From NCBI GenBank assembly GCA_018222825.1, contig JAAEZO010000011.1, positions 1-35,746 of the forward strand: 35,746 nucleotides of DNA, in the 5' to 3' direction. A model generated the notes under the pieces. That model did no database searches. It saw only the letters and a list, made by a program, of their open reading frames with translations, and was not told where the DNA came from. Shown piece by piece: positions 32,846 through 35,746 of this stretch (the stretch's first letter is position 1; every line of letters begins with the position of its first letter). This DNA is from Gammaproteobacteria bacterium. GTDB lineage: Bacteria > Pseudomonadota > Gammaproteobacteria > Enterobacterales > Aeromonadaceae. Made by a program: the position numbers and the translations under genes.

Positions 32846-34219
32846 ATGGTAGATGAGAGACTGAATGTCTTGTTGGTAGAGGATACGGCATCGCTGGCGG
32901 CGCTGTATCAGGCCTATTTGCAGGATGAGCCACTGTCGCTGACGGTGGTCAGCAATGGTCAGCAGGCGCTGGAACATATTCGGCGACAACCACCAGATAT
33001 TCTGTTGCTTGACTTGATCTTGCCCGACATGCCCGGCATGGAAATCCTGAAATGGTTGCACCGGGAGCAGCCGAACGTCACCACCATCGTCATGACCGCC
33101 CATGGCTCGGTAGACGTGGCGGTGGATGCCATGCGCCTGGGTGCGCATGATTTCATCAATAAACCGGTGGAAGCCGAGCGGCTCAAGGTGACCCTGCATA
33201 ACACCATGAAGTTCCGCCATCTGAATCAGTTGGTAGACCGCTATCGTCACGAAATCGAGCGCGAGCCCTTTCAGGGCTTTATCGGCGCCAGTTTGCCGAT
33301 GCAGAAGGTGTTCCGCCTGATTGAGAATGCCGCGCCCAGTACCGCCACTGTGTTTGTTACCGGTGAAAGTGGTACCGGCAAGGAAGTCTGCGCCGAAGCG
33401 CTGCATCAGCTCAGTGGTCGCCGCGAAGGTCCCTTTATTGCCCTGAACTGTGCCGCCATTCCCAAGGATTTGATGGAAAGCGAGTTGTTTGGCCATATCA
33501 AGGGGGCCTTTACCGGCGCCCTGCAGGATCGGGACGGCGCCGTCATTCGGGCCGATGGCGGTACCCTGTTCATGGATGAAATCTGTGAAATGGATCTGGA
33601 GCTGCAGAGCAAGCTGCTGCGTTTTCTGCAGACCGGGCAGATACAGCCGGTGGGCAGCTCACAGCAGATCAAGGTCGATGTTCGCATCGTCTGCGCCACC
33701 AACCGGGATCCCCTGGTCGAGGTGGAGCAGGGCCGTTTTCGGGAAGATCTGTATTACCGCCTGCATGTCATTCCCATCCATCTTCCTCCGTTGCGAGAAC
33801 GGGGAGGTGATGTGATTAGTATCGCCAATGCTCTGGTGCGTCAGGCGTCGCGGGAAGAAAACAAGTCGTTTGTCGGCCTGTCCGAGGCCACCAAAGACCG
33901 ACTGCAGGGCTACCACTGGCCGGGTAACGTGCGTCAGCTGCAAAACGTGATCCGCAATGCGGTGGTGCTGCATCAGGGCGAATGGATAGAGCAGGACATG
34001 CTGCCGGCCCCGCTGGATACCCCCCAGGCGCACAGCTCAACGGCCCAGCCGGTAACCGATGCCATGCCGGCTCCCATAGTGCCGCTGTCGGTGATCGAGC
34101 GCCAGGCGATAGAAAGGGCCATCAGTCATTGCCAGGGCAATGTTTCCCGGGCCGCGGCCCTGCTGGAAGTCAGCCCTTCCACCATTTATCGCAAGCTGCA
34201 GAGTTGGGACAATAACTGA
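32846..34219 (+). CDS. luxO: LuxO-type sigma-54-dependent response regulator
   Basis: Quorum-sensing response regulator of 457 residues that, when phosphorylated, activates sigma-54 promoters. It has a receiver domain (1-120) with phospho-acceptor Asp56 in LLLDLILPDMPG and Lys106 in INKP; an AAA+ domain (about 142-365) with Walker A GESGTGKE (173-180), the sigma-54 contact loop GAFTGA (220-225) and LFMDE; and a C-terminal Fis-type helix-turn-helix (GNVSRAAALLEVSPSTIYRKL). ATG 32846 follows GGGTGAGAGA. The downstream luxU gene overlaps by one base, which identifies it as LuxO rather than another NtrC-family regulator. Confidence 0.9.
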   Translation: MVDERLNVLLVEDTASLAALYQAYLQDEPLSLTVVSNGQQALEHIRRQPPDILLLDLILPDMPGMEILKWLHREQPNVTTIVMTAHGSVDVAVDAMRLGAHDFINKPVEAERLKVTLHNTMKFRHLNQLVDRYRHEIEREPFQGFIGASLPMQKVFRLIENAAPSTATVFVTGESGTGKEVCAEALHQLSGRREGPFIALNCAAIPKDLMESELFGHIKGAFTGALQDRDGAVIRADGGTLFMDEICEMDLELQSKLLRFLQTGQIQPVGSSQQIKVDVRIVCATNRDPLVEVEQGRFREDLYYRLHVIPIHLPPLRERGGDVISIANALVRQASREENKSFVGLSEATKDRLQGYHWPGNVRQLQNVIRNAVVLHQGEWIEQDMLPAPLDTPQAHSSTAQPVTDAMPAPIVPLSVIERQAIERAISHCQGNVSRAAALLEVSPSTIYRKLQSWDNN

Positions 34220-34593
34220 TGACTGACTGGCAACGGCTGCAGGCACGACTTCCCTTGCTGGATCAGCATCAGTTACAGCGGATGGAGCAAGAGCTGGGAG
34301 CCGAGGTGCTGACTCGATTGCTGCGGCTCTTTGTCGAAGACAGCCGGCAGCAGGGAGAGGCTCTGCAAGGGGCCTTTGCCGAGCGGGACAATGCCCTGAT
34401 GGCCCGCTGTTGTCACAGCCTGAAATCGGCCTGTGGCAGTTACGGTGCACTGCGCTGTCAGTATCTGAGTGAAAAACTGGAACAGGCCTGCCATGAGCAG
34501 GATAACGACCAGGTGGAAAACCGGATGCGGGCATGGCAAGAAGCGCTGGAAGAAACCCTGCAGCAACTCGAAACCCGATTGAAAGCTGAATAA
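34219..34593 (+). CDS. luxU: LuxU-type histidine phosphotransfer protein
   Basis: The 124-residue protein is a single HPt helix bundle: phospho-accepting His66 lies in CCHSLKSACGSYGA, followed by YLSEKLEQACHEQD. It should relay phosphate from hybrid sensor kinases to LuxO. Its start codon overlaps the luxO stop (TGATG), so the two are translationally coupled. No kinase or autoinducer synthase gene is in the window. Confidence 0.87.
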   Translation: MTDWQRLQARLPLLDQHQLQRMEQELGAEVLTRLLRLFVEDSRQQGEALQGAFAERDNALMARCCHSLKSACGSYGALRCQYLSEKLEQACHEQDNDQVENRMRAWQEALEETLQQLETRLKAE

Positions 34594-34598
34594 CAGGC

Positions 34599-34627
34599 AA
34601 AAAAATGGCCAACCCAAAGGGTTGGCC
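34599..34627 (-). terminator. Minus-strand terminator beside luxU
   Basis: GGCCAACCC (34607-34615) and GGGTTGGCC (34619-34627) pair across a 3-nt loop. The minus-strand reading is followed by A and seven T; the plus-strand reading has no T tract (GAACTTC). It is therefore oriented for a leftward transcript starting between luxU and moaA. Confidence 0.85.
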
Positions 34628-34671
34628 GAACTTCAGCTAGAGCTGAAGAGAGCACGGGATAAAAACAACTG
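34599..34671 (-). ncRNA. Candidate sRNA B, between luxU and moaA
   Basis: A leftward RNA of about 73 nt is predicted from the sigma-54-like promoter to the minus-strand terminator. Its parts are a single-stranded U-rich 5' end (CAGTTGTTTTTATCCC), a compact hairpin CTTCAGCT/AGCTGAAG (34631-34648) and the terminator hairpin with a U7 tail, a layout like Hfq-binding sRNAs. No protein-coding gene on this strand could use the promoter or terminator. The sequence is not recognised as any known sRNA. Confidence 0.5.
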
Positions 34672-34681
34672 CATACATATA

Positions 34682-34697
34682 TGAAATAATCGTGCCA
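34682..34697 (-). promoter_or_regulatory. Sigma-54-like promoter of candidate sRNA B
   Basis: The minus strand reads TGGCACG (34697-34691), ATTA, TTTCA (34686-34682). The -24 element is a perfect consensus and the spacing is exact; the -12 element has T for G (TTTCA for TTGCA). The predicted start is near 34671. Confidence 0.5.
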
Positions 34698-34758
34698 ACT
34701 TTTCAAATGCAGTCATGGCGGGGTTTCTCAGCCATTCGGTCAAAATTCATACCGAGCA

Positions 34759-34802
34759 TATTGCGAAATATATTCTTTTTGCAATGTCATATTTTCGCAA
34801 TA
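34759..34802. promoter_or_regulatory. TTGC/GCAA dyad, possible enhancer for LuxO
   Basis: TATTGCGAAATA (34759-34770) and TATTTTCGCAATA (34790-34802) are inverted copies, with a further TTGCAAT (34779-34785) between them. The centre is about 110 bp upstream of the sRNA B start, a usual distance for sigma-54 activators. LuxO sites in Vibrio also contain TTGC/GCAA halves, but the match is by inspection only. Confidence 0.45.
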
Positions 34803-34811
34803 TAAAAATGC

Positions 34812-34838
34812 ACACACCACACCACACCACACCACACC
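34812..34838 (+). repeat. ACACC pentanucleotide tandem repeat
   Basis: Five perfect ACACC units (34814-34838) with a partial unit before them. Such short tandem repeats can change length by slippage. It lies between the dyad of sRNA B and the moaA promoter. Confidence 0.9.
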
Positions 34839-34902
34839 AATGAAGCTGTGAGTTCCTCCAGAAAATTCGGGTCGTTTCTACATTCTTCTTGATCTGAAAC
34901 TA

Positions 34903-34931: not shown

Positions 34932-34946
34932 CGGAATATGTCAAAA

Positions 34947-35058
34947 ACTCCGAGTCGAGTACACCTACGTTGGCCAAGGCCAATAAGGTTGCCAGACCGT
35001 TCAGCCGATGGCTGTCAGGGTTGGGAGAGAAATGTCCCTGCCTCCCGTATTGGAAAGG
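34947..35058 (+). promoter_or_regulatory. Probable molybdenum-cofactor (Moco) RNA motif
   Basis: The moaA leader begins with CTCCGAGTC and ends with CTGCCTCCCGTATTGGAAAGG just before the start codon, matching my memory of the conserved edges of the Moco riboswitch. Helices: TTGGCC/GGCCAA (34970-34983), CAGCC/GGCTG (35002-35014), CAGGG/CCCTG (35016-35020 with 35036-35040) and GGGAG/CTCCC (35023-35027 with 35042-35046). The last two cross each other, so they form a pseudoknot or exclude one another. The moaA ribosome site GGAAAGG abuts the 3' end, suggesting control of translation by Moco. Confidence 0.6.
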
Positions 35059-35064
35059 TGTTTT

Positions 35065-35746
35065 ATGTTTGAATTACAGGATGCGTTTGCACGCAAGTTC
35101 CAGTATCTGCGGCTGTCGGTGACCGATGTCTGCAACTTCAAGTGTCAGTATTGCCTGCCGGACGGTTACCGCCCCGACGGGCGCAAGTCATTCCTTACCC
35201 TGGATGAAATCCGCCGTTTGACCCGGGCCTTTGCCGCCATGGGCACCAGCAAGGTGCGCATTACCGGCGGAGAGCCCTCGTTGCGCAAGGATTTTACCGA
35301 CATCATCGAAACTGTGGCGGCCACGCCCGGCATTCAAAAGGTAGCCATGACCACCAATGGCTATCGCATGGCGAAGCACGCCGTTGACTGGCGTCGTGCC
35401 GGCCTGACGGCCATCAACGTCAGCGTCGACAGCCTGGATCCGCGCATGTTTCATCAAATCACCGGCCAGAACCGTTTTCATGAGGTAATGGCGGGCATCG
35501 ATGCGGCCTTTGACGCCGGTTTCGAGCAGATCAAAGTCAATGCGGTGCTGATGCGCGGCCTCAACGACGGCGATCTCGACCGCTTTCTGGACTGGATCAA
35601 GCACAATCCCATTCAGCTGCGGTTTATCGAACTGATGCAGACCGGCGAAATGGACGAGCTGTTCAATCGTCACCATGTGCGTGGCGCCCTTATCAAGCAA
35701 CAATTGCTGCAGCAGGGCTGGCAGCAGAAGCTGCGCGCTCATAACG
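35065..35746 (+). CDS. moaA: GTP 3',8-cyclase MoaA (5' part)
   Basis: Radical SAM enzyme of the first step of molybdenum cofactor synthesis (GTP to 3',8-cyclo-GTP). The frame is open from ATG 35065 to the window end, 227 codons of roughly 325-330, so it is cut by the boundary and not by mutation. The radical SAM cluster CNFKCQYC (Cys23, Cys27, Cys30), [12 protein letters not shown] and [16 protein letters not shown] are conserved. GGAAAGG (35052-35058) precedes the start at 6 nt. Confidence 0.95.

Follow-up and report, generated by a model that had tools for sequence, protein, structure and literature searches.

The closest described counterparts of the gene treated here are the Qrr small RNAs of the Vibrionaceae (RF00378), which carry a sigma-54 promoter and a terminator of their own, have LuxO sites upstream and lie close to luxO-luxU, qrr1 being placed directly upstream of luxO and divergent from it. 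In Vibrio, Qrr is driven by the LuxO phosphorelay; it is produced at low cell density, depends on phosphorylated LuxO and on Hfq, and pairs with the mRNA of the hapR/litR/luxR type. Four stem-loops are described for Qrr (PMC11443567), and the published LuxO site reads TTGCAWWWTGCAA (PMC10162802, PMC11443567, PMC3352281). For Aeromonas, LuxQ-LuxU-LuxO and LitR appear in quorum-sensing reviews with genetic support only (PMC5247445, PMC7512022), and a word search of the available text of these two reviews found no mention of Qrr or of any sRNA between LuxO and LitR. Nor did any title on a LuxO-dependent sRNA in Aeromonadaceae appear in the literature searched, a collection that mostly excludes subscription journals and preprints.

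The window analysed here is 35,746 nucleotides long and comprises the whole of contig C83 from the metagenome-like assembly G000 (84.8% complete), with Oceanisphaera as the closest named kin of its genome. The putative sRNA gene sits on the minus strand in the gap between luxU and moaA. Like Qrr, it has a sigma-54 promoter and its own terminator, LuxO-type sites upstream at similar spacing (although the site in the window itself, 10/13, is not significant) and, in the genus of the window, a position close to luxO-luxU. Unlike qrr1, it is found downstream of luxU and convergent with it. Its predicted RNA of ~72 nt, with one hairpin and a terminator, also differs from the 93–96-nt matches of the Qrr model in family f22, which we read as Vibrionaceae because that model matches its luxO loci. 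Further differences from Qrr are the single copy per genome, the lack of any detectable match in sequence or structure and the lack of evident pairing with litR mRNA. On the best reading, the sRNA would act in the manner of Qrr, with the same promoter logic, but is not recognisable as a Qrr itself. The locus is very probably a stand-alone gene for a trans-acting sRNA of ~72 nt, activated by LuxO and sigma-54 and pairing through the stretch UUUUUAUCCCGUGCUCUC, and the Aeromonadales family that it represents, uncatalogued in Rfam, is real and most likely under the same activation.

Promoter, fold and terminator in the window

The initial annotation of the window had listed a minus-strand terminator with a U7 tail, a near-consensus sigma-54 promoter, a TTGC/GCAA inverted repeat further upstream and an adjacent LuxO with an intact GAFTGA loop. 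All four were found again at the positions given in Table 1, the loop by reading the LuxO of the window. The start of the RNA (34671 or 34670) was derived from the spacing of the -24/-12 element, and its 3′ end was set at the end of the T7 run.

Table 1. Coordinates of the predicted sRNA gene and associated features in the window.
Feature	Position	Strand	Basis
luxO, sigma-54 response regulator, presumed activator	32846..34219	+	NF041946 LuxO, 664.7 bits (cut-off 800, not reached)
luxU, Hpt phosphorelay protein	34219..34593	+	Hpt; LuxU model 43 bits (cut-off 140, not reached)
sRNA transcript, predicted, ~72 nt	34599..34671	-	Model R1 match 34670-34599, 104.7 bits; fold z = -5.0
Intrinsic terminator GGCCAACCC-UUU-GGGUUGGCC + U7 tail	34599..34627	-	Arms 34627-34607; 9-bp stem, 3-nt loop, T7 run 34605-34599; 8/9 pairs with two-sided changes
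Stem-loop 1, CUUCAGC-UCUA-GCUGAAG	34631..34648	-	Predicted fold; 98.9% of cells paired, 41 distinct sequences
Unpaired, almost invariant stretch UUUUUAUCCCGUGCUCUC (presumed seed for target pairing)	34648..34665	-	Mostly unpaired in predicted fold
Sigma-54 promoter TTGGCACG-N4-TTTCA (-24/-12)	34682..34698	-	1 mismatch to YTGGCACG-N4-TTGCW
Degenerate LuxO-type site TCGCAATATGCTC	34754..34766	-	10/13 to TTGCAWWWTGCAA; same place as better sites of relatives
Inverted repeat ATTGCGAAATAT / ATATTTTCGCAAT	34760..34801	.	Sequence reading; arms 34760-34771 and 34789-34801; promoter-proximal arm overlaps LuxO-type site

Taken singly, these elements are near the level of chance inside the window. Four sites matched the sigma-54 consensus with at most two mismatches, where 4.8 are expected by chance, although the one ahead of the sRNA was the only site with a single mismatch. 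A terminator scan gave 3 sites, where shuffled sequence had 2.9 on average, no site came within two mismatches of the LuxO consensus TTGCAWWWTGCAA, and the best upstream match, the 10/13 site of Table 1, did not stand out from shuffles (p = 0.41). Since single elements do not decide the matter, it rests with conservation in relatives. What exceeds chance is the folding of the sRNA segment, which none of 200 shuffles equalled, and above all its conservation in relatives.

At gathering score no Rfam family was found over the sRNA, either in the window or in 10 loci of other groups, and the Qrr model RF00378 was absent at gathering from the whole window as well as from the 7 matches at E <= 10 in the segment 34560-34940. 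SorY, suhB/mmgR and MicA scored 15–16 bits, far under their gathering scores of 111, 41 and 41 bits, and do not count the sRNA among their members; the likeness to them is at chance level and consists of a hairpin with a GC-rich terminator. An ordinary molybdenum cofactor riboswitch (RF01055, 80.9 bits) lies ahead of moaA at 34936-35076 on the plus strand. Just past the upstream region of the sRNA, at about 34806-34840, are short CACAC/CACCA tandem repeats, and the same spot is occupied by GGCGTGA-type repeats in the close relatives L002-L004 and by a GAGGTGT type in L005.

Distribution, conservation and gene neighbourhoods

The initial annotation had tied its proposal to conservation among relatives with the gene order luxO-luxU-moaA, and the sRNA was indeed conserved in 22 of 23 genomes of the same genus group. 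A DNA search matched these 22 and one genome of another genus, 23 of 41 genomes altogether, with matches that cover the promoter and the RNA, the sequence further upstream having diverged in most. By covariance model R1, a single copy was found in each of 70 of the 75 Aeromonadaceae genomes, among them members of Oceanisphaera, Oceanimonas, Zobellella, Tolumonas and Aeromonas. The order-wide set of 394 genomes gave 40 with a match: 34 of the same family, five of family f3 with a diverged sRNA, and a doubtful one of a third family (G321, 33.8 bits), which was rejected as its match rests on the terminator and the unpaired core is missing. A pattern search of named genomes returned 22 stretches, 21 of them from Aeromonadaceae (Oceanisphaera, Oceanimonas, Zobellella, Tolumonas and unnamed Aeromonadaceae); the hit L047, which falls within coding sequence of a Clostridia bin, was discarded. 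The gene is not confined to the luxU-moaA gap and is more widespread than had been annotated, extending across the Aeromonadaceae and into a second family. The genus g20 was identified as Aeromonas from an 8-kb piece with the sRNA that shares 86% identity with a record of Aeromonas caviae. An Aeromonas caviae record of 4.94 Mb (NZ_AP026896.1) is labelled a plasmid and looks like a chromosome.

A set of 63 loci was assembled from 22 same-genus genomes, 9 of the Tolumonas group, 3 of genus g21, 24 of the 36 Aeromonas-group genomes with a match, and 5 of f3; L084, from the same genome as L023, and L150, from G321, were left out. Counts over these loci are not independent, as relatives share ancestry. 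The element TGGCAC/T stands ahead of the RNA core in 63/63 loci, and UUUAUCCCGUG occurs exactly once in each of them. One locus of the second family (L149) has a perfect promoter, TTGGCACG-N4-TTGCT. In nearly all family members, however, the -12 box reads TTTC rather than TTGC, which counts against activation through LuxO and sigma-54. The two helices are paired in 95.9% of cells over the 63 sequences (41 distinct). Compensatory changes in both hairpins, for which a covariance-model search of relatives had been suggested, were seen: 10 of 16 base pairs have changed on both sides (37 cells), a result found in 0 of 500 shuffles, with slid versions reaching 4 pairs at the most. The alignment used here was fitted to the tested structure and is hence biased towards it. 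When 23 close sequences were aligned with MAFFT, 3 pairs with two-sided changes and no broken pair were seen.

The sRNA unit was found in four different gene neighbourhoods, in which the neighbours vary and the promoter and RNA remain constant. In the genus of the window it follows luxU and faces moaA, 0.37–0.48 kb downstream of luxO in all 22 same-genus genomes that have it. In two of the three g21 genomes it lies 4–5 kb from luxO and faces a hybrid kinase at the end of a luxO-luxU cluster, with a folE-like gene beyond the sRNA in one of them. In Aeromonas it is unlinked to luxO, with a LON-domain gene on one side and a hybrid kinase on the other, and in Tolumonas it stands between folE-like and sbcB-like genes; folE and sbcB, like FIST and yvcK, are names for what we take these genes to be from their sequences. 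Because neighbours are shared between the groups, the arrangement suggests an ancestral place near luxO-luxU, the kinase and folE that was later rearranged. As the neighbours differ while promoter and RNA stay, the sRNA appears to be a stand-alone unit.

These observations bear on whether there is an sRNA at all. The segment faces luxU convergently, in a region where chance alone yields many terminator-like sites, so that it could be a two-way terminator for luxU and moaA or some other inert intergenic sequence. We consider this very improbable, since the promoter and RNA recur as a unit next to other genes, and the most conserved parts are the promoter and the unpaired stretch, neither of which a terminator would need.

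LuxO and its candidate sites

The LuxO of the window contains the domains Response_reg, Sigma54_activat and HTH_8. Eleven DNA-binding residues are critical in V. cholerae LuxO (PMC11407668); ten of these are identical in the window protein and the remaining one is changed from I to V. A LuxO of at least 56% identity was found in 73 of 75 family genomes. The sRNA and LuxO occur together in 69 of the 75, LuxO alone in four (G011, G071, G088 and G089), the sRNA alone in one (G085, 63% complete) and neither in one. At E <= 1e-120, LuxO was matched in all five f3 genomes with the sRNA and in five that lack it. Strict orthology of the Aeromonas, window and Vibrio proteins was not settled by a LuxO tree of 34 rows out of 42, the other 8 having missed a strict GAFTGA filter. 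A second LuxO-like protein, with 58–59% identity to the window LuxO, is present in two same-genus genomes (L318 in G006, and G003:C64), and in the tree the one from G006 falls next to Aeromonas LuxO, with modest support.

G011 (locus L144) is the only same-genus genome without the sRNA. It has kept the luxO-luxU-moaA order, and its LuxO is well conserved, including the P-loop and the DNA-binding helix, apart from the sigma-54 contact loop, which reads GGFSGA. The other 22 same-genus proteins have GAFTGA (20) or GSFTGA (2). This parallel loss of the sRNA and change of the loop, a single event, is suggestive of a link between the sRNA and LuxO. Among the fragmented assemblies that also gave no sRNA match, the two of the Tolumonas group (G088 and G089) keep GAFTGA and the Aeromonas one (G071) keeps GSFTGA.

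LuxO-type sites were scanned for by comparing the best match over the 150 bp preceding the promoter with shuffles. Of the 63 loci, which are related by descent, 44 had a match with p <= 0.05, distributed as 13/22 in the same genus, 1/9 in the Tolumonas group, 3/3 in g21, 23/24 in Aeromonas and 4/5 in f3. Exact sites were present in 16 loci: 3 in g21, 10 in Aeromonas, 3 in f3 and none in the same-genus and Tolumonas groups. In many Aeromonas loci the site is located 74–77 bp ahead of the sRNA promoter, and in two Vibrionaceae-type loci an exact site is located 75 bp ahead of the qrr1 promoter. The initial annotation had placed an enhancer site at the inverted repeat of the window. The repeat stands, and the position that aligns with the LuxO sites of relatives is narrowed to its promoter-proximal edge. 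Two loci of family f10 (L123 and L124) have paired exact or near-exact LuxO-type sites by a luxO homologue with neither Qrr nor the R1 family assigned, possibly marking another LuxO-driven RNA.

The sigma-54 promoter might instead be driven mainly by another enhancer-binding protein, SypG- or NtrC-like, with the vicinity of luxO in the window being incidental. Further regulators of the LuxO/NtrC class are present in the same genomes, SypG of V. fischeri shares the sites of LuxO at qrr1 (PMC10162802), and a significant LuxO site is lacking in most Tolumonas-group loci, the site of the window being weak as well. We nevertheless regard this as unlikely, given LuxO-type sites that are exact in three groups, the linkage of the sRNA to luxO in two genera and the changed LuxO loop in the genome that lacks the sRNA.

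Activation by LuxO, the reading we prefer, may be depicted as follows. LuxU would feed a phosphate relay leading to phosphorylated LuxO, which would bind sites ~60–140 bp upstream of the promoter, contact sigma-54 RNA polymerase by its GAFTGA loop and open the promoter. The ~72-nt RNA would stop at its own terminator, and the exposed UUUUUAUCCCGUGCUCUC would pair with mRNAs, probably with Hfq. Transcription, LuxO binding, the use of Hfq, the mode of pairing and the targets are the parts of this explanation that we infer. The proposal of a sigma-54- and LuxO-dependent sRNA distinct from Qrr is nonetheless backed, at the level of sequence comparison, by conservation, covariation, upstream sites, co-occurrence with LuxO and the loop change in G011.

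Relation to Qrr and candidate targets

The Qrr model scored 71.6–85.8 bits in all four f22 luxO loci, which served as positive control, and R1 reached at most 18.7 bits in the same loci. None of the 29 listed f22 genomes with LuxO was among the order-wide matches of R1. Conversely, the Qrr model matched 0/75 family genomes in a search in which the control genomes were silent as well, and the Qrr core is not present in the sRNA of the window. The sRNA could still be a true but very diverged Qrr, descended from an ancestral qrr1 that left its place upstream of luxO, came to lie downstream of luxU and was rewritten past recognition: both share the promoter type, the LuxO-site motif at similar spacing and the luxO region, and non-coding RNAs are able to diverge beyond detection. 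With each model blind to the other RNA and the Qrr core missing, such a descent seems improbable to us.

A homologue of LitR was found in 0/23 same-genus genomes and 0/11 of the Tolumonas group at E <= 1e-20, and it was present in 37/37 Aeromonas and 2/3 g21 genomes. Where LitR exists, no pairing with its leader is evident: in 30 of the 39 LitR loci, these 30 all being of the Aeromonas group, no contiguous complementary run is longer than 6 bases. In 30 Aeromonas genomes (L272-L301) the ~50 bases ahead of litR show almost no variation, less than would be expected of a plain leader. Tentatively, and with slightly more doubt than confidence, we propose that the LuxO relay of the Aeromonadales drives an unrelated RNA with a regulon of its own, that Oceanisphaera, Oceanimonas, Zobellella and Tolumonas have no master regulator of the LuxR/HapR/LitR type, that the RNA output of the relay was replaced or arose independently, and that LuxO gives up sigma-54 activation upon loss of the sRNA. 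If true, a conserved signalling relay keeps its promoter logic yet uses a different RNA. The sRNA is a concrete candidate for the missing LuxO output across a whole order that includes common aquatic and clinical bacteria.

That the unpaired stretch is so extremely conserved points to constraint from several targets. In 10 genomes the exact complement CACGGGATAA had 60 matches, the antisense of the sRNA in each genome included, whereas the same pattern reversed had 34. With an ATG no more than 14 bases after it, CACGGGATA was counted 28 times and its reversed form 26 times, with no overall enrichment. A scan of part of the G005 genome gave a best energy of -25.4, no better than for 12 shuffled seeds, of which 4 were lower. 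The comparison set of 18 moaA loci had no complementarity, and the leaders of luxO in 23 same-genus loci gave pairing energies of -9.9 to -17.1, values that stand without a background set.

The leader of asmA was chosen because two same-genus genomes matched there in the CACGGGATA-ATG search. Of 23 same-genus genomes, 8 have ACGGGATAA adjoining the start of asmA, and 14 reach 7 or more complementary bases, as compared with 13% of shuffles. This motif may simply be the ribosome site of asmA, and among the 3204 candidate start sites scanned in 1.6 Mb of G005 asmA came no higher than rank 147. In the three Aeromonas sequences examined, ACGGGATA lies just ahead of the ATG of galE, and the leaders of asmA and galE, whose ribosome sites carry matches of the ACGGGATA type, are weak candidates for targets.
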